DNA from: Candidatus Acidiferrum typicum
GTDB taxonomy: Bacteria; Acidobacteriota; Terriglobia; Acidiferrales; UBA7541
Assembly: GCA_025463055.1 (NCBI GenBank)
Contig: JAOAPV010000128.1
Span: forward strand, 1-61,333
Length of the DNA: 61,333 nucleotides
Direction of reading: 5' to 3'
Translations under genes and position numbers: made by a program
Shown here: positions 10,245-27,310 of the stretch, in pieces
How positions within the stretch are numbered: the stretch's first letter is position 1
Layout of the letters: the number at the start of each line of letters is the position of its first letter
Notes under the pieces: generated by a model
What the model saw: only the letters and a program-made list of their open reading frames with translations
What the model was told of the DNA's origin: nothing
The model's database searches: none

Positions 10245-10915
10245 TCGGGTAATCCCAGCCGGTAACCGACACCACGCACGGTGTGGATCAACTTCGCAGT
10301 GCGATCCTCGTCAATCTTCTGGCGCAAGCGGTTTATGTAGACTTCCACCAGATTGGTTTCGCTATCGAAATGGCAATCCCAGACATGTTCGATGATTTCA
10401 CTTCGGGTGACCAATTCCGGAGCATGAAGCAGAAACAATTCCAAAAGCGCAAATTCCTTCGCCGTTAGCGGAATTACTTCCGATCCCCGTGTGGCGCGAC
10501 GGCGATGCCGATCCAGCGACAGGTCGGCATAGCGGAGTTTGGCATTACCGCTGTGAAAACCGCGACGCACGAGGGCCCGTACCCGCGCGAGTAGCTCCGC
10601 TAGAGCAAAAGGCTTGGCGAGGTAGTCATCAGCCCCGGCGTCCAATCCGGCTACCCTTTGCTCGACTAAACCTCGCGCGGTCAGCATCAGGACGGGAGCT
10701 TCGACGCCTTGCTGCCGGAGTTCACGGCAGACTTCCAGGCCACTCATGCCGGGCAGCCGAACGTCTAAAAGAATAGCGTCGTATGTGACGTCTATCGCTT
10801 GTTCAAGCCCTTTCTCACCAGTTTCGGCAACGTCAACCGCGTAGGAATTTTCGCGCAAAGCTCGTGCGATGAAGCTAGCGACCTTCCGTTCGTCTTCGAT
10901 TAGTAGGATCCGCAT
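10241..10915 (-). CDS. OmpR/PhoB-family response regulator
   Basis: A 224-residue protein with a receiver domain (acidic pocket ED at 7-8, phospho-acceptor D51 in LLDVRLPGMSG, conserved K in DDYLAKPF). A winged-helix effector domain follows (LTAKEFALLELFLLHAP, then LVEVYINRLRQKID and HTVRGVGYRLG). It belongs to the CusR/CopR/TctD-like branch. It partners the kinase that overlaps its 3' end. Because OmpR-type regulators bind 11-bp-period direct repeats, it is the best candidate for the three repeat elements found at the TonB receptor, propeller and MmgE/PrpD promoters; this is inference. Confidence 0.93.
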   Translation of the reverse strand: MRILLIEDERKVASFIARALRENSYAVDVAETGEKGLEQAIDVTYDAILLDVRLPGMSGLEVCRELRQQGVEAPVLMLTARGLVEQRVAGLDAGADDYLAKPFALAELLARVRALVRRGFHSGNAKLRYADLSLDRHRRRATRGSEVIPLTAKEFALLELFLLHAPELVTRSEIIEHVWDCHFDSETNLVEVYINRLRQKIDEDRTAKLIHTVRGVGYRLGLPE

Positions 10916-10991
10916 GGCGAATAACTCACATCATTGCATACGGCGCGCGGGTGCGTGTGTGAAACCTCTGCTTGTAAGGAGCTTCGAAATC

Positions 10992-12299
10992 TTACTTCAA
11001 ATCGTTGCGAATGATCTGGCCGCCCTTCATTACAAATTTTACGCGCTCGAGTTCAGTTATGTCACTCAATGGGCTTCCTGCAACGGCAATGATGTCCGCG
11101 AACTTTCCCTTCTCGATTGAGCCGATACGGTCTTGCCATCCCATCATCTCTGCCGCCACGGTGGTCGCGGTTTGGATGGCCTGCGCCGTCGACATACCAT
11201 ATTTCACCAGGTAGGCAAATTCTCTCGCCTGCACCCCGTGAGGGAAGGGCCCGGCGCCGCTCCCGAAAGAAATTTTGACTCCTCGCGATATCGCCAAACG
11301 TCCGCTCTTTTCCCGCAATGCCGCAAGACTATACTTGGCGCCCGTCGCCTTGGCATCCCGGGCGGTGTAATCAGAAAGAGAATAGTGGTAGGCGGTTAGC
11401 TCGAGATAAATGCCTTTGCTTTTCATTTGATCTGCGGTGGCATCGTCCAGCTCAATGGCATGCTCGACAGTATCGACTCCGGCGTTGACGCAGTTGCGTA
11501 AGCCCTCGCCGCCGAACGCATGGCACGCAGTTTTTTTCTTGTGACGATGGGCTTCGTCAACAATGGCATCGACCTCTTCCTTGGTAAAGGTCGGATCACT
11601 CCGCAACTCGCCGTCGGATTCGAATTCGTAGTCAGCCGTCGAGTGGAACTTAATCCAGTCTGCGCCATAGTGAATCTGCTCGCGGACGGCTTGGCGCGCT
11701 GCCCAGGGGCTATCCACCGTCTGATAGTTCCTGGGCAGGCTCACCTCCGGCGAACCCAGCATTCCCTCCCCCGTGGCGACCAGACCCATGGTTGACACTT
11801 GCATCCGTGGCCCCTGAAAAAATCCGCGGTTAATAGCTTTCTTGATGTCCACGTCGGCGTAGCCGCCTCCGTGGCTCATCAAATCGCGTAGGGTCGTGAA
11901 TCCAGCCCGCAAATCCTTCTGTGCATTCGCAAGTGCGAGAAGCGTACGGTACTCGCGCGTGTCATTAATGGGGCTCGCGAACGGGGGACCGCCGGGCTTT
12001 ATGTCGTCGAGTCCGTATCCGAAGACGTGGGTGTGTCCGTCGATTAGCCCGGGCAACACTGTGCTCCCGCTGAGATCAATAACTTGCGCTCCCGGCGGAA
12101 CTTGTACGCGATCGGCTGGTCCAACGGCAGTGATTTTGTCCTCCTCGACTAGAATCACCTGGTTTTCCACGACTTTGCCGGACTTGCTATCAAACAACCG
12201 GCCCGCACGAATTACTGTGACCTGCGTTTGTGCGCGTACCGCTGTCGCGGCAAAGCACACCAAGGCACAAGCCACAAACCGGAACGCAAGGATTTTCAA
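10992..12299 (-). CDS. Amidohydrolase-superfamily protein with an apparently altered metal site, secreted
   Basis: A 435-residue protein with a signal peptide (about 1-23) and an amidohydrolase fold of the imidazolonepropionase/Xaa-Pro dipeptidase-like group (COG1228). Metal ligands are present: H89 and H91 (DGHTHVFG), K217 (DWIKFHS), H260 (TACHAFGGEG) and H280 (VDTVEHAIEL). The last conserved ligand, the Asp of the usual FGTDAG...PHG motif, is Gly348 here (FGSGAGPFPHG). A single base change (GAC to GGC) would explain this. The protein may be inactive or use another residue. It lies 76 bp upstream of the response regulator and 57 bp downstream of the propeller gene, so it is probably in the same operon. 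Confidence 0.88.
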   Translation of the reverse strand: MKILAFRFVACALVCFAATAVRAQTQVTVIRAGRLFDSKSGKVVENQVILVEEDKITAVGPADRVQVPPGAQVIDLSGSTVLPGLIDGHTHVFGYGLDDIKPGGPPFASPINDTREYRTLLALANAQKDLRAGFTTLRDLMSHGGGYADVDIKKAINRGFFQGPRMQVSTMGLVATGEGMLGSPEVSLPRNYQTVDSPWAARQAVREQIHYGADWIKFHSTADYEFESDGELRSDPTFTKEEVDAIVDEAHRHKKKTACHAFGGEGLRNCVNAGVDTVEHAIELDDATADQMKSKGIYLELTAYHYSLSDYTARDAKATGAKYSLAALREKSGRLAISRGVKISFGSGAGPFPHGVQAREFAYLVKYGMSTAQAIQTATTVAAEMMGWQDRIGSIEKGKFADIIAVAGSPLSDITELERVKFVMKGGQIIRNDLK

Positions 12300-12356: not shown

Positions 12357-13364
12357 TTATAAAACGTCAAAGACCAATATCTTCGCCGGATCTGTTCCGT
12401 GCTGTGGCACCGCAACGAAATACCGTTTCAACTCGGGCACCAGGCGAGCTGTCCTTGCCATAGGCCCGGTGGGGATTTGCGCCAAGAGCTTGTATTCATC
12501 GGGGCTAGACTGTTGGTAAACGTCCACATTGCCGTCGCTGGCGGTGTAAATGCGCTTACTCGCGGGATCGTAGACAGCGTCGTCAACGCCCTTGGTGATG
12601 GGCAAGGCGGCGATTTCTTTGCCTGTTTGCGTATCCATAACGACCATGGTCGCGGTGCGGCAGGCAATAAACAGCCGGTGGTTGGTTTCATCAAGGGCCA
12701 TAGCTACATTGGTCTTGCATTTTGTTACTGGCCAACTGGCAACGATGGCGCGCTTATCGCGGTCGACCACATCTACTTGGTTCTTAGCTTTGTTGTTGAC
12801 GTAAAGTCTTGGCGTGGCACTCTCGAGAGTCGTGGCCTCGAGCGTTTCTCCGTCGATCTTGATGTCAGCGACTTTCTTCCCCGCCGTGGTATCCACCACG
12901 GTCAGCATCGAGTAGGTTTGGTGGACGTCGCCACCGCCGTTGTCGATATACAGATATTTTGTCTTCGGGTCGTACCCAATCGAGTCCGCATCTTCCAAGA
13001 GTTTCACTGTCGAAAGCAACTTATACGTCTTACCATCGAAAATCTTGAGGTCGCCGGCTTCGCCATCCGTAACGTAAATTCGATCGAGATCCTCGCGATA
13101 CAGCACTGCGTGCGGTTTTTCGATTCCGCTGATGGTGTGAATCGGTTTGCCACTCTTTAATTCAAAGACACGAACTGACTTCGAGCCTTCCGGCGTGGCA
13201 AACAGCCGATCCCCCTTCAGGTCGACACCAAAATGATCAAACTGCCCCTTAGCGTCGGGCGGAAGCGTTATGGTCTGGGCAAGTTTGAGCGGGGCGTCCT
13301 GAGCTCTCGCTGGAATCACAATTAAAGCGAGAAAGGCCGCCAAAACGGAATATCGATTCTTCAT
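12357..13364 (-). CDS. YncE-like beta-propeller protein, secreted (paralogue of the divergent 13608 gene)
   Basis: A 335-residue exported propeller. The ATG at 13364 is chosen because AGGAGAG stands six bases upstream and it starts directly with a signal peptide ending IPARAQ; an upstream in-frame ATG would add 21 non-signal residues. Blades show repeated patterns such as GFDxF-type FDHFGVDLKGDRLF, DADSIGYDPKTKYLYI and NHRLFIACRTATMVVMDTQT. It is roughly half identical to the protein encoded divergently at 13608, so the pair arose by duplication. It heads the minus-strand block, with the conserved operator element 75 bp upstream. Probable periplasmic binding role; no enzyme motif is seen. Confidence 0.87.
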   Translation of the reverse strand: MKNRYSVLAAFLALIVIPARAQDAPLKLAQTITLPPDAKGQFDHFGVDLKGDRLFATPEGSKSVRVFELKSGKPIHTISGIEKPHAVLYREDLDRIYVTDGEAGDLKIFDGKTYKLLSTVKLLEDADSIGYDPKTKYLYIDNGGGDVHQTYSMLTVVDTTAGKKVADIKIDGETLEATTLESATPRLYVNNKAKNQVDVVDRDKRAIVASWPVTKCKTNVAMALDETNHRLFIACRTATMVVMDTQTGKEIAALPITKGVDDAVYDPASKRIYTASDGNVDVYQQSSPDEYKLLAQIPTGPMARTARLVPELKRYFVAVPQHGTDPAKILVFDVL

Positions 13365-13439
13365 TTGCTCTCCTGAGCGTTGATTGGGCTGAACTGCGAA
13401 ATCGCCCGGCAGAGCATAATTCATCAATCGCCTTGTTAG

Positions 13440-13466
13440 CTTAAATGAAGATTAATTTCTGTTTAG
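13440..13466 (-). promoter_or_regulatory. Direct-repeat operator, copy 2, between the divergent propeller genes
   Basis: Read toward the minus-strand propeller it contains TAAACAGAAATTAA followed by a third TAA, with an 11-bp period. It matches copy 1 at 22 of 27 and copy 3 at about 20 of 27 positions by eye. The position in the 243-bp divergent intergenic region would let one regulator act on both the minus-strand block and the plus-strand catabolic block. A clear -10 box next to it was not found. Confidence 0.55.
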
Positions 13467-13607
13467 TTCGGTAAGAGCGAGGGCTCGATTGAAGTAGATT
13501 GACCAACCGGCACGGGAATCGCGGCTTTCCTTTCATCGGACAAACTAGGCGTAGGGGAAGCCAGCGACGAACGATGGAACCTGTCTCTTAATGCGAGAGG
13601 AGCCCCT

Positions 13608-14627
13608 ATGAAGTCCACACGAGCCGCCATCATGGCGCTAATGGTTTTTCTCGGAGGCGTCGCTAAGGCAAAAGATAATCCGCCATTGAAACTTGCGGAT
13701 ACGATCTCGCTGCCCGGTCTTAAGGACGGCGACTTTGATCATTTCGCTCTTGATCTAGAAGGGCATCGTCTTTTCCTCACCGGGGAGGAGAACGACAAGG
13801 TCCTGGTTTTCGACACCTCCACGAACAAGCTTATTCACACGATTGAGGAATCGAAAGCGCCGCACGCCATTCTTTACCGCGGCGATCTTAAGAAGCTTTT
13901 CGTCGTCGAAGGGGATGCATCGGCGGTCAAGGTATACGACGGTGAGAGCTACAAGCCGATCGCTGAGATTAAGGTTTCCGTCGACGCGGATTCCATTGCT
14001 TACGATCCCGCTACGCAGTACCTGTACGTGGTGAATGGGGGCCGGGAAGCGCATACGCCCTATTCATTGATCAGCGTGATTGATACGAACAGCTCCAAGA
14101 AATTGCGCGACATCAAAATTCCTTCGAATCACGTCGAAGCGATTGTGCTGGAAAAATCCGGGCCGCGGATGTTCATGAACATTACCGGCAAAAATGCGGT
14201 GGGGGTCATGGACCGAAATAAATCGGTGCTCGAAGCCACTTGGCCCCTGCCGGCTGGCGACAAGCTGAATGTGGCGATGGCGTTGGATGAAGCGAATCAT
14301 CGCCTTTTCGTGGTCACCAGAACTCCCGGTAAGTTAATCGTGTTGAATTCAGATACGGGCAAAGTTGTGACTAGTGTTCCGGCAGTGGGCATGGTCGACG
14401 ACATGGCCTACGACGCCAAACAAAAGCGCATTTACGTGGCGGGGGACCAATTCGTGGATGTCTTCAACCAAAAAGACCCCGATCAATATGAGCGTGTGGC
14501 CAGAATCCCCGGCAGCTTCCGGGCTAAGACCGGCATTCTGGTCCCCGAACTGAACCGCTACTACCTGGCTGTGCCTCATCACGAGAGTCACGAAGCCGAA
14601 GTCAGAGTCTACGACGTGCAGCCCTGA
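13608..14627 (+). CDS. YncE-like beta-propeller protein, secreted
   Basis: A 339-residue protein with a short signal peptide (to about VAKAKD) and a full propeller. Its order and wording of blades matches the divergent neighbour at 12357-13364: FDHFALDLEGHRLF, APHAILYRGDLKKLFVV, DADSIAYDPATQYLYVVNGG, NVAMALDEANHRLFVV. A GAGAGGAG Shine-Dalgarno precedes the ATG, and its 5' bases can pair with TCTC just upstream in a small hairpin. It is the first gene of the plus-strand block, 61 bp ahead of the first MmgE/PrpD gene. Function unknown; probably a periplasmic ligand-binding or scaffold protein of the same pathway. Confidence 0.87.
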   Translation: MKSTRAAIMALMVFLGGVAKAKDNPPLKLADTISLPGLKDGDFDHFALDLEGHRLFLTGEENDKVLVFDTSTNKLIHTIEESKAPHAILYRGDLKKLFVVEGDASAVKVYDGESYKPIAEIKVSVDADSIAYDPATQYLYVVNGGREAHTPYSLISVIDTNSSKKLRDIKIPSNHVEAIVLEKSGPRMFMNITGKNAVGVMDRNKSVLEATWPLPAGDKLNVAMALDEANHRLFVVTRTPGKLIVLNSDTGKVVTSVPAVGMVDDMAYDAKQKRIYVAGDQFVDVFNQKDPDQYERVARIPGSFRAKTGILVPELNRYYLAVPHHESHEAEVRVYDVQP

Positions 14628-14688
14628 TAACGTCGAACTTGTGGCTTCAATTCGAGGTGGCTGGATCATCACATGGTCGGGTAAATAA

Positions 14689-16182
14689 ATGCTAAGGCGG
14701 GAGTTCGGCAAAGCCTCTCTGGGCATTATGGCTTCGAGGGCGCTTTCTGTTTCGGCAAAGAGAGCAGAATGGTCCGCCGGTGGCTTCCCCAAAACTCCCG
14801 GATTGACTGCCTACGTCGGCAAATTCGTCACGACGATGACGTACGAACAGATTCCTGAAGACGTAATCGAATTGGGAAAGAAATCGATCCTCGACGGTCT
14901 GGGATTGGCTTTGGCTGGCTCGCGCGCGGAGACCGGATCGATCTCGCGGAAATATGTCCAGCAAATTGGCGTATGCAATGGAAAAGCGACCATCATTGGT
15001 TCGGCACAAAGGACCTCGCCCCGTTTCGCCGCGCTCGTCAACGCCATTTCTATTCACGCCGACGATTTCGACGATACTCAGCTTGCCGCTGCAAAAGACA
15101 GGGTATACGGTCTGCTCATGCATCCTACGGTCCCCGTGCTGCCCTCGATTTTCGCTCTTGCGGAGCAACGAGCAGTAAGTGGCAAAGAATGGATGCTTGC
15201 TTATCATGTTGGTGCTGAAGTGGAATGCAAGATCGCGGAAGCCATTGCGCCTCGCCACTATCAAGATGGATTTCATACGACTGGCACTTGCGGGCCGTTC
15301 GGTTCGGCTGCTGCCTGCGCCAAGCTCCTCAAATTCGATCTATCAAGAACGCTGAACGCCTTCGGCCTGGCAGCCAGCCAATCTGGAGGCATGCGCGAAA
15401 ACTTCGGCACTATGACTAAACCCTTCCAGGCTGGGCACGCAGCAGAAAGCGGTCTGATTTCTGCCGAACTGGTTGCCCTAGGGTGGACTGCGGCGGAGCA
15501 AATCCTCGAAGCAGATAGAGGTTTCTTCCACGCGTCCGGCGGTTCATACGACCCATCTGCGATCATGGACCGCTTGGGAAATCCGTGGACCTTTGCCTCG
15601 CCCGGTGTGTCACTGAAGCCCTATCCTTCTGGGTCGCTGACGCATCCTGCGATGACCGAACTCGCACGCTTGATCGATGCTCACAAAATACAGGCGCCGC
15701 AGGTGGAAAAGGTCGATATTGGGGCAAATCACAATATGACCACCACGCTTCTCCACCATCAGCCCAAAACCGGACTCGAGGCAAAATTCAGCATGGAGTT
15801 CTGCATGGCAATTCTTCTGCTGGAGCACAAGGCGGGTTTGGGCCAATTTTCGGATAAGGTGGTTCGTCGTCCGGATGTACAGGAGATGATCCGCAAGATC
15901 AATTTTTACGTTGACCCTGAAGCCGAAAGCGCCGGCTACGACAAAATGACCTCGATCCTGAAAATCCATTTGACTGACGGCACCACGATCACGGGCCGGG
16001 CCGACTTCGGCAAAGGCAGTCCGGCAAACCCCATGAGCTTTGACGAGGCGGCAACAAAGTTCCGGGGATGCGCCGAATTCGCCGACTGGCCCAAGGCAAA
16101 GACGGAACAGATAATTGCGTTCACAAAATCGTTGGAGGCTGCTCCCGATATGTCCGCGCTCTCACCGCTGCTATCGGCGTAA
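14689..16182 (+). CDS. MmgE/PrpD family protein with Tat-like signal (copy 1)
   Basis: A 497-residue MmgE/PrpD protein; the family includes 2-methylcitrate dehydratase and cis-aconitate decarboxylase. The N-terminus MLRREFGKASLGIM has a twin-arginine pattern (RR-x-F-x-K) followed by a weakly hydrophobic stretch, so export is possible but unproven. The family's active-site region is visible as HADDFDD, with TGTCGPFGSAAAC and KPYPSGSLTHPAMT further on. It differs clearly from copies 2 and 3, which are closer to each other. It lies 19 bp before the dehydrogenase gene. The likely reaction is dehydration or decarboxylation of a hydroxy-tricarboxylate or related acid; the substrate is unknown. Confidence 0.88.
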   Translation: MLRREFGKASLGIMASRALSVSAKRAEWSAGGFPKTPGLTAYVGKFVTTMTYEQIPEDVIELGKKSILDGLGLALAGSRAETGSISRKYVQQIGVCNGKATIIGSAQRTSPRFAALVNAISIHADDFDDTQLAAAKDRVYGLLMHPTVPVLPSIFALAEQRAVSGKEWMLAYHVGAEVECKIAEAIAPRHYQDGFHTTGTCGPFGSAAACAKLLKFDLSRTLNAFGLAASQSGGMRENFGTMTKPFQAGHAAESGLISAELVALGWTAAEQILEADRGFFHASGGSYDPSAIMDRLGNPWTFASPGVSLKPYPSGSLTHPAMTELARLIDAHKIQAPQVEKVDIGANHNMTTTLLHHQPKTGLEAKFSMEFCMAILLLEHKAGLGQFSDKVVRRPDVQEMIRKINFYVDPEAESAGYDKMTSILKIHLTDGTTITGRADFGKGSPANPMSFDEAATKFRGCAEFADWPKAKTEQIIAFTKSLEAAPDMSALSPLLSA

Positions 16183-16201
16183 GCAACACGAATAGGGACT
16201 G

Positions 16202-17269
16202 ATGAAAACCTTCAAAATCGCAGTAATCGCCGGAGACGGCATCGGGAAAGAGGTCGTTCCCGAAGGCATTCGTGTTCTCGAAGCGGCAGGGCAGCGTTTC
16301 GGGTTTCGCTTGCAGTGCCAAGCGTTCGATTGGAGCTGCGAGACCTATGTACACACCGGCAAAATGATGCCGGATGACGGCCTAAGGCAAATGCGGCCTT
16401 TCGATGCAATTTTCCTCGGTGCTGTTGGCCACCCTAGCGTTCCGGATCATGTCTCGCTCTGGGGCCTTCTGATCCCCATACGGCGTGCTTTCCGGCAATA
16501 CGTCAATCTTCGTCCCGTGCGCCTTTTCGACGGAATTGAGTCGCCACTGAAGAAGTGGAAGCCTGGTCAGATCGATTTCACAATCGTTCGCGAGAACAAC
16601 GAGGGCGAATATTCGAACATTGGCGGACGTCTCTATGAAGGTACCGACGACGAAATGGCCGTGCAACAAACGGTATTCACACGACGCGGTGTGAATCGCG
16701 TCCTGCGTTTCGCCTTTGAATTGGCTGGCAAACGGAAGAAGCATCTGACCTCGGCCACGAAGTCTAACGGTATCATCCACACGATGCCGTTCTGGGACGA
16801 ATGCTTTCGTTCCATGGCCGCGGAGTTTCCGGACATTTGTACCGACCAGTTTCACATCGATATCTTGACCGCCCACTTTGTCCGCAACCCAGATTGGTTC
16901 GATGTCGTCGTCGGTTCAAATCTTTTCGGGGACATTTTGTCAGATCTTGGTCCCGCGGTGGTCGGCTCCATTGGGATCGCTCCCTCCGCCAATCTCAATC
17001 CCGAAGGGGAATTCCCCTCCATGTTTGAACCTGTTCACGGCTCTGCCCCGGATATAGCGGGAAAGGGAATTGCTAACCCCATTGGCCAGATTTGGTCCGG
17101 AGCAATGATGCTTCGGCACTTGGGCCTGCCGGAAGCAGCGGACGCCATTGAAAACGCAATCGCGGACGTCTTGGCGGAAAGAAATGTGCGGACTCCAGAC
17201 ATCGGAGGCAACTCCTCCACGAGGGAACTGGGTTCAGCAATTGCGTCGCGGGTGAGTCAGGAAAAATAG
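16202..17269 (+). CDS. Tartrate dehydrogenase / D-malate dehydrogenase family (decarboxylating)
   Basis: A 355-residue member of the isocitrate/isopropylmalate dehydrogenase superfamily. It is closest in motifs to tartrate dehydrogenase (TtuC) and D-malate dehydrogenase (DmlA). Diagnostic segments are SLWGLLIPIRRAFRQYVNLR, RENNEGEYSNIGGR, TSATKSNGI (catalytic Lys), DWFDVVVGSNLFGDILSDLG (metal Asp residues) and FEPVHGSAPDIAGKGIANP. The usual length is about 350-365 residues. These NAD- and divalent-metal-dependent enzymes oxidise tartrate or D-malate and can decarboxylate the product. It lies between an MmgE/PrpD gene and the carboxylate transporter, near the D-tartrate dehydratase, which favours a tartrate-type substrate. 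TtuC and DmlA cannot be told apart by reading alone. Confidence 0.9.
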   Translation: MKTFKIAVIAGDGIGKEVVPEGIRVLEAAGQRFGFRLQCQAFDWSCETYVHTGKMMPDDGLRQMRPFDAIFLGAVGHPSVPDHVSLWGLLIPIRRAFRQYVNLRPVRLFDGIESPLKKWKPGQIDFTIVRENNEGEYSNIGGRLYEGTDDEMAVQQTVFTRRGVNRVLRFAFELAGKRKKHLTSATKSNGIIHTMPFWDECFRSMAAEFPDICTDQFHIDILTAHFVRNPDWFDVVVGSNLFGDILSDLGPAVVGSIGIAPSANLNPEGEFPSMFEPVHGSAPDIAGKGIANPIGQIWSGAMMLRHLGLPEAADAIENAIADVLAERNVRTPDIGGNSSTRELGSAIASRVSQEK

Positions 17270-17351
17270 CCCCTTTTATCAATATTCGGCACGGCACGAG
17301 GCAGCGCACAATCCGTTATTACAGCGCGCTATAGGCAAATTTGACCTACGA

Positions 17352-18680
17352 ATGAAATCTGAAGCTCAGCTCGCTGACCGCAGTGCAAAGATTTGGTCGG
17401 TGGTGCGCGTCTCCAGCGGAAATTTTCTGGAGATGTATGACTTCATGGTCTTCGGCTACTACGCCTCTGCAATCGGCAGAGCCTTCTTCCCAAATGGCAA
17501 TCCGTTTGTATCGTTGATGTTGTCGTTGATGACGTTTGGGGCAGGATTTCTTATGCGGCCTCTCGGTGCCATCGTGCTCGGCGCCTACACCGACCGACAT
17601 GGACGCCGCGCGGGACTCCTTCTGACCCTCGGACTGATGTCCGTTGGGATCTTCTCCATAGCGTTCATGCCGGGGTACGCTACGATTGGCCTGCTGGCCC
17701 CATTGTTTGTCTTGGTCGGTAGACTGCTCCAAGGCTTCTCGGCGGGTATGGAGCTGGGCGGCGTTTCTGTTTATTTATCGGAGATCGCCACGCCGGGTCA
17801 CAAGGGCTTCTACGTTAGTTGGCAATCAGGAAGCCAGCAAGTGGCCGTAATGTTCGCAGCACTCGTCGGCGTCGTGCTGAGTTCCATTCTACCACCAGAA
17901 AAGATGACCGTGTGGGGATGGCGTGTGCCGCTGCTCCTCGGCTGCGTGATTATTCCCTTTCTATTCCGGCTTAGACGGTCCCTGCAAGAGACTGATAGCT
18001 TCGCCGCTCGCAAGCGTCGGCTGACCACATCCGAAATTCTCCGCTCGCTTTCCGCTAACTGGGCAATCGTCGTCGTCGGGACGATGATGGTGACGATGAC
18101 GACGGTGTCCTTCTACATGATCACGGCCTATACGCCTACCTTTGGCAATTCCGTGCTTCACCTCGCAAGTATTGACGGATTGATTGTCACGCTTTGCGTA
18201 GGAGCGTCAAACCTGTTCTGGCTTCCGGTTGCTGGCGCTATTTCCGATAGGACGGGGCGCCGTCCCTTGCTTCTAGTATTCACAATCCTCATGTTGATCA
18301 CCGCTTATCCGGCCATGTTGTGGCTAGTGCGCGAGCCTTCGTTCGCCAGATTGTTGGCCGTTGAACTATGGCTGTCATTCATTTTCGGCAGCTACAACGG
18401 TGCGATGGTGGTCTTTCTGACAGAAATCATGCCGATGGACGTAAGAACCTCCGGGTTCTCGCTAGCCTACAGTCTCGCAACGGCTATCTTCGGCGGTTTC
18501 ACACCGGCCATCAGCACTTACCTGATTCATCGCACAGGGAATCGCGCCGTTCCAGGACTATGGTTGTCTCTTGCGGCAGCGTTCGGATTTGTTGCGGCGC
18601 TCCTGGCCAAACCTCAACCTGGCTTAACTGAAGCGTTTGAAGGGCACGCGCTGGATTCGATCTCAATGCAAGCGAAATGA
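17352..18680 (+). CDS. MFS transporter, citrate/tricarballylate:proton symporter type (MHS family)
   Basis: A 442-residue protein with about 12 hydrophobic helices. It has the metabolite:proton symporter signature around GNFLEMYDFMVFGYYASAIG, the loop motif DRHGRRAGL between helices 2 and 3, and RLLQGFSAGMELGGVSVYLSE in helices 4-5. A second loop motif, SDRTGRRP, lies in the C-terminal half. It resembles CitA/TcuC citrate and tricarballylate permeases of the inner membrane. The neighbouring TarD and dehydrogenase genes point to a hydroxy-polycarboxylate such as tartrate, but the substrate is inference. It lies 82 bp after the dehydrogenase and 55 bp before MmgE/PrpD copy 2. Confidence 0.9.
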   Translation: MKSEAQLADRSAKIWSVVRVSSGNFLEMYDFMVFGYYASAIGRAFFPNGNPFVSLMLSLMTFGAGFLMRPLGAIVLGAYTDRHGRRAGLLLTLGLMSVGIFSIAFMPGYATIGLLAPLFVLVGRLLQGFSAGMELGGVSVYLSEIATPGHKGFYVSWQSGSQQVAVMFAALVGVVLSSILPPEKMTVWGWRVPLLLGCVIIPFLFRLRRSLQETDSFAARKRRLTTSEILRSLSANWAIVVVGTMMVTMTTVSFYMITAYTPTFGNSVLHLASIDGLIVTLCVGASNLFWLPVAGAISDRTGRRPLLLVFTILMLITAYPAMLWLVREPSFARLLAVELWLSFIFGSYNGAMVVFLTEIMPMDVRTSGFSLAYSLATAIFGGFTPAISTYLIHRTGNRAVPGLWLSLAAAFGFVAALLAKPQPGLTEAFEGHALDSISMQAK

Positions 18681-18735
18681 GCCAGAGACTCAATAGCTGC
18701 GAGTAGTTGGATCCGCTGCAGGGCCAAGGAGGACG

Positions 18736-20265
18736 ATGACGATGAAAGGTGCTTCGGGTGATGATGACAAAGATCTGATCGCGCGACCGTTTTTGACCCG
18801 GCGCGGCCTTTTCGAATTTGCCGGACTCGGCTTCGCGACCCTTGCTCTCCCGCCTCAGATGCTCCTCTCCGCCACATCGCCAGTTCGCTCCGGCTCACAA
18901 CAAAAGGTGAGCTCCATCATGCAGACGCTCAGCACATACATGAGTGAAGCTGCCGGACGTGCCCTCCCAGATGAAGTGGCTGAAAAGACGAAACAACACA
19001 TTCTCGATACCTTCGCCGCGATGCTTTCAGGTTCCGAACTGCCTCCGGGGCGCACGGCACTTCAGTTTGCTCGTTCCTACGGTGGCAAGGAAGTCGCCAC
19101 CGTAGTAGCGTCCAATTTCTTATGCGGTCCGATCGAGGCCGCGCTTACAAACGGCATGCTAGCCCATGCTGACGAGACCGATGATTCCCACGCTCCGTCG
19201 CAGTCTCATCCGGGGTGCGCAGTCATTCCAGCTGCTCTCGCATCCGGCGAACGGTTTGGGATTGGCGGATCGCATTTTCTGCGTGCCGTTGCTCTTGGTT
19301 ATGACATCGGGCCCCGCTTCACGGTTACCTTAGGCGGCCAGCGCTTTGAAGCCGAGAGCCACTGGAGCACGCACAGCATTTCTCCTCTCTTTGGCGCAGC
19401 CGCGGCCGCGAGTTGCGCAGCGAGCTTGAACGCTCAGCAGATGCAGTGGATGCTGGGCTATACCGCGCATCAATCCTCCGGCTTGGGAGCATGGAATCGC
19501 GACACCGAACATGTTCAGAAAGCCTTCCACTTCGGTGGCATGACGGCACGCAGCGGGGTTACCTCGGCACTGCTGGTTCAGGCGGGCTGGACCGGTGTCG
19601 ACGACATCCTCTCCGGGAAAGACAATTTCTTTGCTGCCTACAATCCGCATGCAGATCCGGCCGGTCTGATCGACAAGTTAGGCGAACGTTACGAGGTAGT
19701 TCGCACAAACATCAAGAAATGGCCTGTGGGATCGCCTATCCAAGCGGCGCTCGATGCAATGGAAATCTTGCGCAAGGAAAAGCCTTTTGAAGCCGCTCAC
19801 GTAAAGCAGGTATCGGTGCAGCTTGCCACGGATGAAGCGGCCATCGTGAACAACCGCGAAATCCCCGACATCTGCCTACAACACATGGTCGCTGTGATGC
19901 TGCTGGATAAAACGGTCACATTCATTTCCGCCCATGATAAAGAGCGATTAAAAGATCCCGCGACCCTCCGCGAGCGCGCGAAAGTACAGCTCATCCCCGA
20001 TCCGGAATTGGAGCGACTCATGCCTCTTCGCGTCGCCATCGTCAACATCACCTTGGACAATGGACGTCGCCTCACTCAGCGTGTCGACAATGTACGAGGC
20101 ACTCCTGAAAATCCCATGACCCGCGACGAAGTCGTCGCGAAGGCCAGAGACCTGATCGCCCCTATTCTCGGCACCGTCAACTGTTCAAGTTTGATCGAGA
20201 AAGTGTTCCACCTGGAAACGGTAAGCGATATTCGTGAGCTTCGACCACTGTTGCAGCGCAACTGA
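18736..20265 (+). CDS. MmgE/PrpD family protein with Tat signal (copy 2)
   Basis: A 509-residue MmgE/PrpD protein. It opens with a polar lead (about 22 residues), then a twin-arginine signal FLTRRGLFEFAGLGFATLAL. The family core starts near residue 60 (STYMSEAAGRALPDEVAEKT). Key segments are LAHADETDDSHAPSQSHPG (active-site His/Asp region) and KKWPVGSPIQAALDAM. It shares most of its wording with copy 3 at 21617, so the two are recent paralogues; copy 1 is more distant. A GGAGG motif stands 6 bases before the ATG. Export by Tat would place a normally cytoplasmic enzyme type in the periplasm. Confidence 0.88.
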   Translation: MTMKGASGDDDKDLIARPFLTRRGLFEFAGLGFATLALPPQMLLSATSPVRSGSQQKVSSIMQTLSTYMSEAAGRALPDEVAEKTKQHILDTFAAMLSGSELPPGRTALQFARSYGGKEVATVVASNFLCGPIEAALTNGMLAHADETDDSHAPSQSHPGCAVIPAALASGERFGIGGSHFLRAVALGYDIGPRFTVTLGGQRFEAESHWSTHSISPLFGAAAAASCAASLNAQQMQWMLGYTAHQSSGLGAWNRDTEHVQKAFHFGGMTARSGVTSALLVQAGWTGVDDILSGKDNFFAAYNPHADPAGLIDKLGERYEVVRTNIKKWPVGSPIQAALDAMEILRKEKPFEAAHVKQVSVQLATDEAAIVNNREIPDICLQHMVAVMLLDKTVTFISAHDKERLKDPATLRERAKVQLIPDPELERLMPLRVAIVNITLDNGRRLTQRVDNVRGTPENPMTRDEVVAKARDLIAPILGTVNCSSLIEKVFHLETVSDIRELRPLLQRN

Positions 20266-20296
20266 ACTCATTTCACGCGGTGCAGAAAGGCGTCTC

Positions 20297-21466
20297 TTGA
20301 GAATCGTCGACATTCGCGAGACCGTCGTACCAATCAAATCGCAGATTCGTAACGCCTTCATTGACTTCAGCCAGATGACCGTCAGTGTCCTAGGGCTGGT
20401 CACCGATGTGCTTCGCGACGGTAAGCCGGTCGTCGGTTTTGGTTTCAACTCCAACGGCCGCTATGCGCCAAGCGGACTCCTGCGCGATCGCTTTATTCCT
20501 CGTCTCAAAGCGGCGGACTCTCGCGCGCTGCTCAACGACGCCGGAGACAATCTCGATCCCGCCCGAGTCTGGGATGTTCTCATGCGCAATGAGAAACCTG
20601 GCGGTCACGGCGAACGCTCCGTCGCTGTCGGCGTTGTAGATATGGCGGTGTGGGACGCCGTTGCAAAGATCGCCGGAGTTCCGCTCTATCGGTTTCTCGC
20701 CGATCGCTATCGTGGTGGCGCCGTTAATGCGAAGGTCTTCGTTTACGCTGCCGGCGGCTATTACTATCCGGACAAAGATCTGACCGCTCTTCAGAAAGAA
20801 ATGTCAGGCTATCTTGATCTCGGTTATTCCGTAGTCAAGATGAAGATAGGCGGAGCCCCACTGGCCGAAGATCTGCGTCGCATCGAAGCGGTCCTCAAAA
20901 TCCTGAAGACCCCCGATCAACTCGCCGTAGACGCCAATGGCCGCTTCGACCTGGAGGTTGCGATTGCGTATGCCCGCGCTCTTGCCCCTTACAAGCTTCG
21001 CTGGTACGAAGAACCGGGCGACCCTCTAGACTACGATCTGCAAGCGAAGCTCGCTCCTCACTACCTAGGCCCTATGGCTACCGGCGAAAATCTTTTCTCG
21101 CTGCAAGACGCACGCAATCTCATCCGCTACGCAGGTCTGCGTTCCGACCGCGACGTGTTGCAATTCGACTGTGCACTGAGCTATGGCTTGGTCGAATATC
21201 TCCGTATCCTCGACATGCTGAAAGAACACGATTGGTCGCCCGCCCGTTGCATTCCTCACGGCGGACACCAAATGTCTTTGAACATCGCCGCAGGGTTGGG
21301 ACTGGGAGGCAACGAATCTTATCCGGGCATCTTCCAGCCGTTTGGCGGATTTGCCGACGGCATCCCTGTGGAAGACAGCTATGTTCGCTTGCCGGATATT
21401 CCGGGCATCGGCTTTGAAGCTAAAAATGAATTGTTCCGCGTAATGAAGGGGTTGATCGAGGGTTAG
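20297..21466 (+). CDS. tarD: D(-)-tartrate dehydratase (enolase superfamily)
   Basis: A 389-residue enolase-superfamily enzyme that closely follows the D-tartrate dehydratase of Bradyrhizobium. Shared segments are TDVLRDGKPVVGFGFNSNGR, NEKPGGHGERSVAVGVVDMA and FVYAAGGYYYPDKDL. The catalytic KxK pair is K181/K183 (VVKMKIGG). Metal ligands lie in AVDANGRF, WYEEPGDP and MATGEN. The acid/base His is H321 in IPHGGHQMSLNIAAG. The known reaction is D-tartrate to oxaloacetate plus water, in the cytoplasm. The TTG at 20297 is chosen because AAAGG is eight bases upstream and it gives the family's usual start (RIVDIRE); a longer version would overlap MmgE/PrpD copy 2. It gives the locus its most specific functional label. 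Confidence 0.93.
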   Translation: MRIVDIRETVVPIKSQIRNAFIDFSQMTVSVLGLVTDVLRDGKPVVGFGFNSNGRYAPSGLLRDRFIPRLKAADSRALLNDAGDNLDPARVWDVLMRNEKPGGHGERSVAVGVVDMAVWDAVAKIAGVPLYRFLADRYRGGAVNAKVFVYAAGGYYYPDKDLTALQKEMSGYLDLGYSVVKMKIGGAPLAEDLRRIEAVLKILKTPDQLAVDANGRFDLEVAIAYARALAPYKLRWYEEPGDPLDYDLQAKLAPHYLGPMATGENLFSLQDARNLIRYAGLRSDRDVLQFDCALSYGLVEYLRILDMLKEHDWSPARCIPHGGHQMSLNIAAGLGLGGNESYPGIFQPFGGFADGIPVEDSYVRLPDIPGIGFEAKNELFRVMKGLIEG

Positions 21467-21496
21467 TCTGCGTCCGCACATGACCACACCGTCGCC

Positions 21497-21523
21497 ATTA
21501 ACAGAAATTAAGACTGATTTCAG
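21497..21523 (+). promoter_or_regulatory. Direct-repeat operator, copy 3, upstream of MmgE/PrpD copy 3
   Basis: Reads TTAACAGAAATTAA toward the downstream gene and matches copy 2 at about 20 of 27 positions, with the same 11-bp spacing of TAA units. It is followed by GGTATCTC, which aligns with the GGTATAGT that follows copy 1, so a promoter here is plausible. Its position 15 bp before the ATG at 21539 but 93 bp before the ATG at 21617 supports the later start for the gene. Confidence 0.5.
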
Positions 21524-21616
21524 GTATCTCACTCCTTCATGGCATACCTTCCTTTCACTCGCGCGTTGTGCGGCGCCGCTGGACCAGTCAAATCAAGCAC
21601 CTCGGATACGACAAAC

Positions 21617-23155
21617 ATGAGCCATGCAGAAGACCATAGCTACAAAGCGAAAGATCGCCTACAACTGACTCGCAGGCGCTTGATCAAGCTCAGCGGCATC
21701 TCTACATTCCTCGCCGCTGTTCCGCCTGGTCTTGCCAAAGCTGCCTGGTTTCTAAATTCTGACGAGGCCCCGCAAGGCATCAGTCCCATCATGCAGCAGC
21801 TCAGCACGTACATGGCTTCGGCCAGCACCCGTGCGCTGCCGGATGACGTGACCGAAAAAACCAAGGAACACATTCTGGACACATTCGCAGCGATGATTTC
21901 CGGCTCCAGCTTGCCTCCTGGACGCGCTGCCATCGAGTTTGCCCGCGGCTATGGCGGCAAGGAGATTGCCACCGTTGTAGCGTCTAACATTGTGTGCGGC
22001 CCAATTGAGGCCGCATTCGCCAACGGCGTGCTCGCGCATTCGGATGAAACCGACGACTCGCATGGTCCTTCCCGCTCGCATCCTGGAGTTTCCGTTGTTC
22101 CGGCGGGTTTTGCCGCCGGCGAGCAGTTTGCGATCACCGGCGTGCACCTCATACGCGCGGTCGCTCTCGGATATGACCTGGGCTCGCGCATCACGATGAG
22201 CATGGGCGGACCCGCCTACCAGGCAGCAACTCACCGCAGTACGCACGGCACCGCCGCAGTTTTCGGAGCCGGGGCCGCAGCTGGTTGTGCCGCCAGTCTG
22301 AATCCGGAAAAGATGCGCTTGCTGCTCGACTACACGGCGCAGCAAACGTCAGGAATCGGCGCCTGGTCTCGCGATGCCGAACACATGGAGAAGGCATTCC
22401 TCTTTGCCGGAAAGCCCGCCGCTGGCGCAGTCTTGGCGGCTTCACTGATTCAGTCTGGCTGGAGCGGTGTGCAAGATGTCTTTTCTGGTCCGGATAACTT
22501 TTTTGAGGCTTTTGCCCCTCGGGAAAATGGCACCATCAAGGCCGATCCCACCGTCTTGGTGGACAGGCTCGGCGAGCGCTACGAGATCGCCCGAACCAAC
22601 ATAAAGAAATGGACCGTAGGCTCGCCAATTCAGGCGCCGCTCGACGCTCTCGCCGGTTTCTTCAAGCAGCGCTCGTTCTCCGCCGACGATGTAAGTAAAG
22701 TTGTCGTCCGGATCGCGAGCGACGAAGCAAACACCGTCAGCAATCGCGACATGCCCGACATCTGCCTGCAGCACATGGTTGCCATCATGCTCCTCGACAA
22801 GACGGTCACGTTCCGCTCGGTCCACGATCGAGCCCGGATGAAGGATCCCGCCGTACTTCGCCAGCGCGCCAAAGTAGAAGTCCTCGCCGATCCACGCATT
22901 GACGCGCGTCGCCCAAAACGCGAAGCCATAGTTGAATTGACTCTTGCCGATGGCACGCAACTTACTGAATGGGTTCGCGACGTTCGCGGCACTGCGGAAA
23001 ATCCTATGACTCGCGAAGAGGTTATGGACAAAGCTCGCGATCTCATCGCTCCTGTACTCGGAACCGAGGTGTGCTCAAAGCTCATCGGCAAGCTGATGGC
23101 CCTGGAAACTCTGCGCGATGTCCACGAGCTCCGGCCGGTCCTCCAAAGGAGTTGA
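21617..23155 (+). CDS. MmgE/PrpD family protein with Tat signal (copy 3)
   Basis: A 512-residue MmgE/PrpD protein with the Tat signal [20 protein letters not shown], then the family core ([20 protein letters not shown]). The active-site region [19 protein letters not shown] and [16 protein letters not shown] match copy 2. The ATG at 21617 is preferred over one at 21539 because the earlier one leaves no room for the promoter-like element at 21497-21523. Neither start has a strong Shine-Dalgarno. The stop is 8 bp before the DctA start, so the two are coupled. Together with copy 2 it flanks tarD, which suggests the paralogues act on pathway intermediates or stereoisomers; this is inference. Confidence 0.87.
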
Positions 23156-23163
23156 TCGAATCG

Positions 23164-24468
23164 ATGCTGGCCCCCCCCGTCACCGAATCTCCGACAACTT
23201 TGGAGCGCAAGAAGCCCTTCTATACCGGACTTTCCTTCCAAGTGCTGGCCGGCGTCGCCATTGCCATCATCCTTGGCTACGTCAGCCCAGCTACGGCCGT
23301 CGCCATGAAGCCGCTCGGCGATGCTTTCATCCGCTTAATTACCATGATCATCACGCTGGTGATCTTTTGCACCCTGGTCACCGGAATTGCCGGCATGGAA
23401 GACATGAAAAAAGTCGGCCGCGTCGGCGGGAAAGCTCTACTCTATTTCGAAGTAGTCTCGACAATCGCGCTGCTCATAGGACTCGCCGTCGGTAATGTTG
23501 TACATCCAGGCAGCGGTTTCAATGCCGATCCCGCTACGCTGGACGCTAGGGCTGTCGCGGAATATGCCGGCCAAGCCAAAGCCCAAAAAGTGACCGAATT
23601 TCTCGTCCACATCATTCCGACCACCGTTGTCGACGCGTTTACCAGGGGAGACATCCTGCAGGTCTTGTTCGTCTCTCTTCTGTTCGGTTTCGCGTTGTCG
23701 CTCGCGGGTCCGCGCTGCAAACCTCTCATCGACTTTTTGGAGGCCCTCACCCGCGCCGTGTTCGGTGTGGTGGCGATCTTAATGCGCTTCGCTCCCATCG
23801 GAGCCTTCGGAGCCATGGCGTTCACCGTTGGCAAGTACGGTCTGTCGTCCCTGGGTCCTCTCGTCAAATTGATGGTTACGCTCTACATCACATCGCTACT
23901 CTTCGTCATCGTCGTGCTCGGAGGAATCGCGCGCATCGCAGGATTCGGAATCTTCCGCTTCCTCTGGTATCTTCGCGAAGAAATTCTTCTTGTACTGGCC
24001 ACGAGCTCTTCGGAACCCGCCCTGCCCGCTCTAATGGCCAAACTCGAAAGGCTCGGTTGCTCCAAAGCCCTCGTCGGTCTGGTCGTCCCAACGGGTTACA
24101 CCTTCAACGCTGACGGCACGAGCCTCTACATGACTCTCGCCGCATTGTTTGTGGCCCAAGCTACCAACACCCATTTAACGCTTTTACAGCAATTCACAAT
24201 CCTAGGCGTCGCCCTGCTTACCTCGAAAGGCGCAAGCGGAGTGCAAGGAGCGGCCTTCATCGCGCTGGTAGCTACCATGATGGTCATCCCAACCATACCC
24301 GTCGCCGGAATGGCGCTGATTCTTGGCATTGACCGCTTTCTGAGCATGTGCCGCGCTGTCGTCAACATGACTGGCAACGCTGTTGCTACGCTGGTTGTGG
24401 CGCGTTGGGAAAACGAGCTGGATCGCGATAGTCTCAAACGCAATCTGGCGGATCAAGCGACAGGATGA
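23164..24468 (+). CDS. dctA: C4-dicarboxylate:cation symporter (DctA/DAACS family)
   Basis: A 434-residue inner-membrane symporter of the glutamate/dicarboxylate family. Typical segments are [40 protein letters not shown] (the serine-rich re-entrant loop), [20 protein letters not shown] and [28 protein letters not shown]. These transporters import succinate, fumarate, malate and related acids with protons or sodium. The ATG at 23164 has AAGGAG 12 bases upstream, a long spacing. A run of eight C (23171-23178) lies in codons 3-6 and could be a slippage site. It is the last gene of the plus-strand block. Confidence 0.92.
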
Positions 24469-24592
24469 CGCTACATCAAATTGCCCAGGAAAATAAGCTA
24501 CTTACTTCTTGACCGCTGCTGCAAAACTGATCCGTGGTCCGAATCCCACCCGCGCCTCCGAATCTAGCTTTGGTCCAACATTGCCGGAGTGT

Positions 24593-24898
24593 TTATTCCT
24601 TTGCTTTATTCACAGGACTTCGCTTGGAGTAGTTGCGGAGCTCCCCTAGTTTTTGTTTCGTGTATACGCCGCCGCCAATGAGCTCTGCCCCCTCACACGT
24701 GATTTCCGCCAGAACGGCTTCGCCACTCCGGTCGATAAACGTCACATCGTTTAACTCAATAATGCATCTGCGCGCGTCACCGTCGCGGCGCGTTTCTCTC
24801 CAAGTTGAAATCAGCTCGGCAGCCCACGGGCCGACCAGGCGACCCTCGAGAAACCATCTCTGCTCGTCAGGAAAATCGGTTATGGTGATCCTCAGCAC
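24593..24898 (-). CDS. STAS-domain protein (anti-sigma factor antagonist-like)
   Basis: A 101-residue single-domain protein. It has a beta start (LRITITDFPDEQRWFLEGRL), a helix with WAAEL, and the central STAS strand CIIELNDVTFIDRSGEAVLAE, where the Asp-Arg-Ser-Gly turn is the position phosphorylated in SpoIIAA-type antagonists (the Ser). The GTG start has GAGGGAG upstream. No anti-sigma kinase or phosphatase lies next to it, so its partner is unknown. It is separated by about 124 bp from dctA on the other strand; that gap shows no clear terminator. Confidence 0.8.
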   Translation of the reverse strand: MLRITITDFPDEQRWFLEGRLVGPWAAELISTWRETRRDGDARRCIIELNDVTFIDRSGEAVLAEITCEGAELIGGGVYTKQKLGELRNYSKRSPVNKAKE

Positions 24899-25107
24899 TG
24901 CTCTCCCTCTCCTGCCTGTTCACGCGCGCTAACAGATTCATTGACGCTTGAACCTTTTCACTCACTCGTGTGATGGAGCACGTCGCGTGCCACACTCAAC
25001 TGACGAGTCGAGTCGCGCAAATGCTTGAAGAAAGAAGAAATGCTGGAAGCGACAACGAGGAACGTGTGGGAATGTCGAAGTGCAACGCGTCGGCGTATCG
25101 ACCGCAG

Positions 25108-27219
25108 CTAGGGTCTTTGGTCACTTTGTCGCGGGTGGATTCCAAGCCTGCGCATTTTGTAGATCAGAGTGGTCCGAGGTATTCCCATCCGTGCGGCGGC
25201 ACCATTCGATCCGCCGAGCACCCAGTGGGCTTCGCGCAACACTTGCACGATATGCTCGCGCTGCGCATCATCCAATGAATTTGTCGTCCTCGCTGCGCTT
25301 GCCGTGGAAGCGGCCTGGGCAGGCGCGACTTTCAGTTCAGAGATGGGAGGTTGAAGCACAGTCCCTTTGGAGAGAATTACGGCACGCTCGATGAAATTTT
25401 GGAGTTCGCGAATGTTTCCCGGCCACTCATATTTCGTCAACGCATGCATGGCATCAGAGGGGATGGTTTCGATGGGCTTGTTCATTTGTTTCGCATACTT
25501 CTCAGCGAAGAAGCGCACCAAGTCAGGAATGTCCGCTCGCCGCTCGCGAAGTGGCGGCAGCATGACTGGAAATACATTTAGCCGATAAAACAGATCAGCG
25601 CGAAACTGCCCTTCTTGGACCATCTTCTCTAAGTTTCGGTGCGTCGCCGCGACGATCCGTACGTCCACCTTGATCGACCGGGTGCTCCCCAGCCTTTCGA
25701 ACTCCTGTTCTTGCAGCACACGCAGCAGCTTCGATTGAAGCTCCAGGGGGATATCCCCTATTTCATCGAGAAAAAGCGTGCCTCCATTCGCAAGCTCGAA
25801 ACGTCCGACTCTGCGTTCTATCGCGCCGGTAAATGCTCCTTTCTCATGCCCGAAAAGTTCGCTCTCCAGCAATCCCAGAGGAATCGCAGCGCAGTTCAGC
25901 TTCACAAATGTGTGATCTTTCCTCGGGCTCAGTTTATGGACGGCGCGAGCAATCATCTCCTTTCCGGTCCCGGTTTCGCCGTAAATCAGTACCGTGGAAC
26001 CAGTGGGTGCAACGGTTTCCACCTGTTTCAATGCTCGTTTGAGGGCGGCACTGGAGCCGACAACCTCCTGAAATCTGTGCTCAGAGCCGATTTCATCGAG
26101 AAGGTAAAGACGTTCCTCCGCAAGCTGCCGCCGCGATTCATTCACATTGCGATATTCAAGCGCATTTTCGAGCGCGATTGCGACTTGGTTTGCCACTTGC
26201 CCCAAAAAGCCGACGTCTTGAACACTGAAGGCATTCTCGCGGCGATCAAGAAGATGCAACACACCTAGTTTGCGGTCTCCACGAACGATCGGAAGAAAGC
26301 AGCCGGACTGGAATGCTTCATCGGCGTTCGTTTGTGAGGCGACTGGGGCGAGGTCGGATGGCGGACTGCCCCAGCAGAAGGGCTTCCCACTTTCGAAGGC
26401 GCGACCGGGGCTTGTGTCGGCGATCGGCAGCACCATTTCATTAACCATGAAGCCGCGTCCCTCGGGGAAGTCCAGCCCTTGGATCCGCAGCTCTGACTTT
26501 TCTTTTTCGGGCAATGACAAGCATACGGCGTCACATTGCATAGCACGGCGAACGCTCATGGGTATCGCTTCAAACAGCTGAGTTAGATCTAGATTCGAAA
26601 CCACCGCATTATTCAAGTCTAGTAGAAGCTTCAGCCGGTCACGTTCCTGCGAGAGTTCTCGGTGAAGCGCGAGAATGGATTCATAATTCAATGCATTCTC
26701 CACCGCTACAGCCACTTGCTTGGCAAGGAGCTGCAGGATGTCGAGATCCTCTTCCGTGTAGGCTTCCGCTCGGTTAGCGCCGAAATGCAAAGCGCCGAGG
26801 GGCCGCCACGCCGTAGTCAGCGGCACTAGACAACTCGATCGAACTCCGTGTTCTCGAATCAATTTGATAGCGGAGTTGAAGCGCGTCTCACGCTCCGTAT
26901 CGGAAATGATCAGTGGCTGCTGCGTTCGCCAGACGACCGCCGCTATGGATTCTTCCATCGAGAGTTCCATGCCCGGTTTGATGGGGGAGTCAGTGGAGCT
27001 ATCAAGCGCATGGACCCGCATTACGTTGCGTTCTGGGTCAAAAAGCGAGACGGCGAGAAAATCAAAATCAACAAGAGGTTGGAGACCTTTGACGAGAGCA
27101 TGAAAAAAATCAGCGAGCGTCGTGTGAGATCCAATAGCTCGCGAGACCTCTAGCAAAGTGCGGTATTCGCGCGCTTCGCTCTCGGTTAGCAGTTTGTCAC
27201 GCAGCTCTATCACATTCAT
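25108..27219 (-). CDS. Sigma-54-dependent activator with two GAF domains
   Basis: A 703-residue FhlA/NifA-like activator. Two GAF sensor domains (about residues 30-170 and 200-350) precede the AAA+ domain. The AAA+ domain has Walker A GETGTGKE, the sigma-54 contact loop GAFTGA (about 458-463) and Walker [12 protein letters not shown] Fis-type helix-turn-helix ends the protein ([21 protein letters not shown]). The ATG at 27219 is preferred because the longer version adds 54 residues unlike the family. The activator lies divergently from a small secreted-protein gene whose upstream region carries a -24/-12 promoter match, so that gene is a likely target. The ligand of the GAF domains is unknown. 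Confidence 0.93.
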
Positions 27220-27310
27220 TCTTGAGTATGACTCACCTATATTTAGATTCGAATCCGCAAATAATAGGTACGTCTGACGGCAAGCCCACCAACCGTTTGT
27301 TGAGTGCGAA

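Follow-up and report, generated by a model that had tools for sequence, protein, structure and literature searches.

MmgE/PrpD paralogues with conserved Tat-type signals in an operon-like gene run of Candidatus Acidiferrum typicum

Three genes of the MmgE/PrpD family, which we call M1, M2 and M3, lie within an operon-like run on a 61,333-nucleotide stretch of Candidatus Acidiferrum typicum DNA (JAOAPV010000128.1; hereafter the window), contig 13 of a genome assembly of 5.33 Mb in 146 contigs. Characterised members of this family, which include the macrophage enzyme that makes itaconate, are treated as cytoplasmic or mitochondrial; M1, M2 and M3 each start with a twin-arginine translocation (Tat)-type signal that is conserved among their relatives, and we consider their export by the Tat system highly probable. 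The genes alternate with those for a predicted D-tartrate dehydratase (TarD), a tartrate dehydrogenase (TTC) and two organic-acid transporters, and it is conceivable, at slightly under an even chance, that the three proteins are exported enzymes with four-carbon dicarboxylates as substrates, the stereoisomers of tartrate being the most likely. Passages of PMC12290011 describe most members of the family as lacking a known function. Among the matches listed for the openly licensed literature, covered by titles and beginnings of abstracts, we found neither an exported MmgE/PrpD enzyme nor a tartrate-active member, in agreement with an earlier note on this DNA, made from the sequence alone, that had expected the arrangement to be new; in a passage of PMC10924467, an MmgE/PrpD gene is named merely as a neighbour.

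Results

As the earlier note had it, three open reading frames (ORFs) on the plus strand carry both Pfam domains of the family: M1 at 14689-16182 (497 residues; PF03972 with 210 bits, PF19305 with 110 bits), M2 at 18736-20265 (509 residues) and M3 at 21539-23155 (538 residues as called). Both domains exceed the Pfam gathering cut-offs in all three proteins, and at an E-value of 0.001 PF03972 matched nothing else in the whole genome. M3 probably starts at its second methionine (21617, giving 512 residues), because several orthologues, judged by eye, also have a methionine there. M2 and M3 flank tarD and, at 58% identity, are indeed close paralogues; M1, which aligns with M2 at 25% identity, occupies a separate branch of the family tree.

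Each protein carries a twin-arginine motif near its N-terminus: LRREFGK in M1 (14692-14712), whose sequence begins MLRREFGK, TRRGLFE in M2 (18796-18816), about 20 residues into the protein, and TRRRLIK in M3 (21668-21688), about 20 residues after the likely start, all on the plus strand. These are the motifs that had been read from the sequence before, and the hydrophobic stretch claimed behind each of them is present as well: all three proteins pass a strict Tat test, which demands RRx[FLIVM] and, after it, 13 residues with a mean hydropathy of at least 1.0. One might nevertheless suppose that the starts were mis-called and that M1-M3 are no more than ordinary 2-methylcitrate dehydratases of the cytoplasm, as they share the Pfam domains of PrpD and match its equivalog models weakly; we regard this as very improbable. 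The best scores against the NCBIfam PrpD equivalog models were 41.7, 32.3 and 31.9 bits at a cut-off of 950, equivalog cut-offs were missed by more than 550 bits, and the identification as 2-methylcitrate dehydratase, an enzyme of a cytoplasmic cycle, was rejected for failing them. In addition, the twin arginines of M1 are residues 3-4, close orthologues (by eye) have a methionine just ahead of the motif, and no methylcitrate-cycle gene was found among the scanned cluster genes, the rest of the genome not having been searched for such genes.

The strict test was extended to distinct proteins from loci L001-L105, with edge, duplicate and short ORFs removed before counting. It was passed by 93 of 100 M2/M3-type rows, by 7/8 close M1 rows and by 3/17 distant M1-type rows, counts that are not independent events, as the rows are related by descent. 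The seven M2/M3-type misses comprise three with RRxA, one with RRKF and a weak stretch, one with RK, and two (L070, L072) without a signal. In most rows the residue before the twin arginine is Thr or Ser, as it is in the Tat consensus. The rows span Acidobacteriota, Bradyrhizobium, Paraburkholderia, other Proteobacteria and Verrucomicrobia/Opitutaceae, many of them metagenome-assembled. Chance was rejected as a source of such signals: among 48 control proteins (TTC, TarD, DctA and TcuC from the loci), none passed the strict test and three passed a looser one. In one M2-like gene (L103/L142, G028:C37 near 23888), a TGA follows soon after the signal motif TRRRMLE, reflecting either a broken gene or a sequencing error.

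The genome encodes TatC (220.5 bits, G000:C12), adjoined by an ORF that resembles TatA/B by eye. Our confidence in export rests on this gene, on the conserved twin-arginine motif and on the low-confidence N-terminus that precedes the predicted fold of M2 (see below); to this extent the periplasmic location proposed in the earlier note gains support, export itself remaining a prediction. It seems improbable that the signals are vestigial or mere membrane anchors and that M1-M3 work in the cytoplasm together with TarD and TTC, although these two partners have no signal, M1 has a short hydrophobic region that contains an Arg, and the signal-less M2 relatives L070 and L072 imply that this type of enzyme may function without one. 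Against such a scenario, the twin-arginine motif is kept across phyla despite differing residues ahead of it and occurs on separate branches of the tree, which drift would not maintain.

Within Acidobacteriota, a search for PF03972 in 199 genomes, including that of the window, returned 51 places in 40 genomes, of which 12 passed the Tat test, under the strict and the looser rule alike: the three of the window, L135 and eight others. The pass of L135 is probably spurious, and the signal of L150, which narrowly fails, looks real; for the tree, L135 was accordingly labelled by eye as without and L150 as with a signal, and three truncated or broken sequences (L133, L142, L154) were left out. The tree comprises 95 rows (the Acidobacteriota survey sample, hand-picked rows of 25 loci, iminodisuccinate (IDS) epimerase and 7bra), and parsimony places six changes of the Tat label on it, at least three of them forced by starred branches. 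Signal-bearing proteins fall into groups that lie apart, namely M1, M2/M3 and a third group of L110, L041, L125 and L127, and the closest relatives of the M1 clade, L130 and L141, have no signal. Since M1 and M2/M3 sit on separate branches, a repeated origin of the signal is probable. A single origin across M1-M3 is disfavoured by this tree, which was built quickly from partly hand-picked rows and whose long branches leave the deep branching order unsure. Beyond the phylum, four proteobacterial genomes chosen for holding an M2 relative contain 35 MmgE/PrpD places, and 12 of the 30 examined passed the looser test. In the genome of Bradyrhizobium barranii (L075), two neighbouring Tat-motif MmgE/PrpD genes (L168, L185; G297:C1:2264804-2266980) exist in addition to the M2 relative near TarD.

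Active-site columns were defined by the residues of the Agrobacterium IDS epimerase that are named in parts of PMC12290011 and PMC7347537, leaving short and duplicate ORFs out of the alignment. M1 matched this enzyme (2hp3) with an E-value of 5.8e-55. The equivalents of His99, Lys198 and Lys266 are kept in all close rows (M1 8/8, M2 82/82, M3 15/15), and all seven active-site positions are kept in the 8/8 close M1 rows. At the Asp88 column, M1 has Asp and M2/M3 have Glu. At the column aligned with Tyr145, Tyr is found in all close M1 (8/8) and M3 (15/15) rows, compared to 13 of the 82 close M2 rows, 57 of which have Phe and 12 another residue or a gap. The window's M2 has Phe (Phe204), and the combination of Phe in M2 with Tyr in M3 recurs in each of the 11 loci outside the window with both a close M2 and a close M3; L081, where M2 is accompanied by a distant M3-like gene (43%) that shows a gap in this column, was excluded. 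As a feature of the aligned sequences, the Phe/Tyr contrast within M2/M3 is firm, and it strengthens the earlier suggestion that the two paralogues differ in their roles. M1 and its orthologues shown contain an 8-residue insertion between the equivalents of Asp88 and His99, within the loop that leads to the catalytic His, that is missing from the M2, M3, IDS epimerase and IRG1 rows shown.

Structure prediction, which the earlier note had proposed as a check, was carried out for M2. In the AlphaFold2 model (mean predicted local distance difference test score, pLDDT, 88.1), residues 1-57 mostly score below 50 and the chain is well folded from about residue 58 onward, where it is predicted to adopt the MmgE/PrpD fold. 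IDS epimerase was the top match in Foldseek (E-value 6.7e-26) and aligned with the model over 436 residues in VIA-align (Z 49.2, root-mean-square deviation 2.1), followed by the IRG1/cis-aconitate decarboxylase (CAD) structures with Z of about 45 and PrpD/MmgE with Z of 35-40.

M1-M3 are embedded in eight plus-strand genes with short gaps (13608-24468), which we read as one operon-like run: a beta-propeller, M1, TTC, a TcuC-like symporter, M2, TarD, M3 and DctA. TTC (16202-17269, no signal) scored 559.9 bits against TIGR02089, the tartrate dehydrogenase model (cut-off 470.4); it also passed the 3-isopropylmalate dehydrogenase model NF002898 (405.1 bits, cut-off 393) and may act on D-malate instead of tartrate. 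The protein encoded at 20297-21466 (no signal; start set at TTG 20297) belongs to the enolase superfamily and matches Bll6730 (2dw7) over its full length (residues 1-388, E-value 9.4e-181), identifying it by sequence as an orthologue of D-tartrate dehydratase, TarD. The two transporters are a TcuC-like tricarballylate/proton symporter of the major facilitator superfamily (17352-18680; NF011656, 701.5 bits, cut-off 445) and the C4-dicarboxylate transporter DctA (23164-24468; NF002461, 629 bits, cut-off 513, scanned as the longer ORF 22969-24468). The beta-propeller at the head of the run (13608-14627) contains TIGR02276 repeats above the cut-off, is of an exported type as judged by its signal (by eye) and is syntenic in relatives.

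Gene content in the relatives was taken from tblastn, as ORF maps picked by length chose false ORFs in G+C-rich loci, overlooking even TarD in L159 and L160. The order M1-TTC-M2-TarD-M3-DctA is kept in L004, L008, L011, L016 and L069; in L027 the six genes are all present in a rearranged order, with M2-TarD-M3 retained, a trio also seen in L006, L007, L009 and L021, and L046 holds the cluster without TarD. In L004, from a metagenome-assembled genome, the M1 orthologue is split over two frames (5155-5977). TarD lies about 1.5 kb or less from a Tat-motif M2 relative in four of the seven Bradyrhizobium loci (L075, L079, L080, L082), but on the opposite strand and without a match to M1, M3 or TTC; L067, L076 and L077 show no such pairing. 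The TarD of L082 is very close to Bll6730 (E-value 4.1e-259). A different combination was observed in L162 (G163:C2:827000-846000), where a TonB receptor, DctA, an alpha/beta hydrolase, an M1-like protein, a bicupin and an M2-like protein are encoded in series (1876-12242). The last four carry Tat motifs (those of hydrolase and bicupin by eye), and the bicupin belongs to the oxalate-decarboxylase family (TIGR03404, 477.7 bits, cut-off 254.2).

Upstream of the run, on the minus strand, the window encodes a divergent beta-propeller paralogue (12357-13427) that clusters with the propeller at 13608, an amidohydrolase whose N-terminus looks like a signal by eye (10992-12299; PF01979, 136 bits) and which is kept in several related loci, a two-component pair assigned by eye (8814-10915; histidine kinase 8814-10244, response regulator 10241-10915) and an Oar-type, TonB-dependent outer-membrane receptor (5315-8761; PF25183 with 598 bits, PF13620 and PF07715 above cut-off). 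With the two-component pair, the amidohydrolase and both beta-propellers in between, the receptor is about 6 kb from M1, so that "next to a TonB receptor", as the earlier note put it, is loose for the window; it is right for several relatives, as a receptor homologue is found in many tartrate-cluster loci, in some of them much closer, and adjoins the M2 relative in L043 and L166, where TarD is absent. Just downstream of DctA, on the minus strand, a GAF/sigma-54-activator-type regulator (25108-27381, by eye) is a possible regulator of the run. A promoter and terminator scan of 13300-25000 yielded nothing exceeding shuffled controls, and Rfam and tRNA scans a single tRNA-Arg. Near M2 relatives outside tartrate clusters, genes for NHL-type beta-propellers, other than those accompanying the tartrate cluster, recur in L017, L030, L036, L052, L058, L060 and L071 (profile scan for L036 only). 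A family of about 400 residues, ammonium-transporter-like by eye, occurs near M2 relatives in L024, L054, L055, L059, L060, L061, L063 and L065, mostly Betaproteobacteria.

Discussion

The gene run suggests a route by which organic acids could be processed on both sides of the inner membrane. M1, M2 and M3 would be exported, folded, into the periplasm by the Tat system, presumably with cleavage of their signals, and would there have four-carbon dicarboxylates as substrates, most probably the stereoisomers of tartrate. With what, by alignment, resembles the His/Tyr pair of epimerases, M1 and M3 would invert the carbon next to a carboxylate via an enolate; M2, with Phe in place of Tyr, might catalyse a one-base step or accept a single isomer. 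Either DctA or the TcuC-like symporter would import the products, which, in the direction proposed here, TarD and tartrate dehydrogenase would use up in the cytoplasm. From the Bll6730 literature we take TarD to act on D-tartrate, and tartrate dehydrogenase handles other tartrate isomers. According to parts of PMC12290011, all known substrates of the family have a 1,4-dicarboxylate backbone, and its authors propose an enolate route for these enzymes. Because tartrate has this backbone and TarD and TTC have their isomer preferences, the simplest guess is that M1 and M3 are tartrate isomerases, and we tentatively see these two as tartrate-isomer epimerases and M2 as a variant, an assignment that may well prove wrong.

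Several observations weigh against this proposal. The TcuC-like symporter within the run hints at tricarboxylates, and with importers that take all isomers there would be no obvious need for an epimerase in the periplasm. Most Acidobacteriota members of the family (39 of the 51 places, a few of them truncated) fail the Tat test; the earlier note had named a wide lack of signals among homologues as the finding that would speak against export, and such a lack does exist outside the relevant clades, but not among M2/M3-type proteins. Of the 79 loci with an M2 relative, many of them on short contigs, 16 also hold TarD and 22 hold TarD or TTC; therefore, tartrate cannot be assumed for the M2/M3 clade as a whole. 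Among 297 Acidobacteriota genomes, four, including the window's, have a TarD match, and the 16-17 kb around TarD in L159, L160 and L161 gave no tblastn match to M1, M2 or M3 (E-value 1e-5), which speaks against TarD and MmgE/PrpD being tightly linked throughout the phylum; in L161, a DctA homologue lies beside TarD. Finally, the Phe/Tyr column of M2/M3 corresponds to Tyr145 of IDS epimerase only by gap placement: the match is uncertain because a two-residue insertion follows and because a second, better-kept His is nearby (H213 in M2, four residues on, kept in at least 90% of 40 rows; an aligned His occurs in 56/82).

The first of these points could also mean that M1-M3 are exported, but dehydrate or decarboxylate tricarboxylates or other acids of the soil, such as citrate, aconitate or methylcitrate-like compounds. 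Consistent with this, aconitate or methylcitrate is the substrate of several family members, as parts of PMC12290011 state, 57 of the 79 M2-relative loci have neither TarD nor TTC nearby, and in L162 the Tat-tagged MmgE/PrpD proteins surround a Tat-tagged bicupin of the oxalate-decarboxylase family beside DctA and a TonB receptor. We nevertheless judge it unlikely, as both in the window and in relatives the genes are flanked by TarD and TTC, the PrpD equivalog scores (at best 41.7 of 950 bits) are far under the cut-off, and the epimerase Tyr is, by alignment, retained in M1 and M3.

Among known systems, the IDS epimerase (2hp0, 2hp3) is the nearest to M1-M3, with the fold predicted for M2, the sequence match to M1, the catalytic His/Lys/Lys and, by alignment, the Tyr of M1 and M3. 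However, its substrate is a chelator, it is only 22% identical to M2, and its solved chain aligns only past the signal (M2 residues 57-506). The (S)-(R)-methylsuccinate isomerase of PMC12290011 offers a parallel in logic: as described there, this MmgE/PrpD enzyme converts an isomer that is poorly used by its partner, a CoA transferase preferring (R)-methylsuccinate, and so feeds a stereoselective downstream enzyme, as we envisage for TarD and TTC. Glu91 is among its docked residues, and M2/M3 have Glu at the IDS Asp88 column. It differs in belonging to an itaconate cluster, signal peptide, periplasm and tartrate go unmentioned in the main text, and the likeness is one of description. IRG1 of Bacillus subtilis (7bra) and mammalian cis-aconitate decarboxylase (6r6u) share the fold, and 7bra also core residues, but their solved chains likewise align only past the signal and their chemistry is decarboxylation, which parts of PMC12290011 doubt for the B. 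subtilis IRG1-type protein. The 2-methylcitrate dehydratases (1szq, 5mux, 6s62) have the fold in common with M2, but M1-M3 fall short of the NCBIfam PrpD cut-offs. The four Bradyrhizobium loci resemble the window in placing TarD near a Tat-tagged MmgE/PrpD protein, and differ in strand arrangement and in the genes they lack.

More broadly, MmgE/PrpD enzymes may repeatedly have moved across the inner membrane, where a periplasmic stage would sort stereoisomers, here those of tartrate, before import. The trio in the window, with its differing active sites, could work as a set between the TonB receptor and the dicarboxylate importers, and the sister cluster L162 would pair such members with an exported oxalate-decarboxylase-like enzyme; we offer this wider picture as a possibility of which we are doubtful. 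The conserved export signals on M1-M3 suggest that part of the organic-acid chemistry takes place outside the inner membrane. With export signals and intact active sites across a widespread group, the MmgE/PrpD family would gain a further cell compartment. The conserved operon with TarD and TTC names candidate substrates and so provides a handle on MmgE/PrpD function, and the findings also bear on the use of organic acids from plants and microbes by soil Acidobacteriota.

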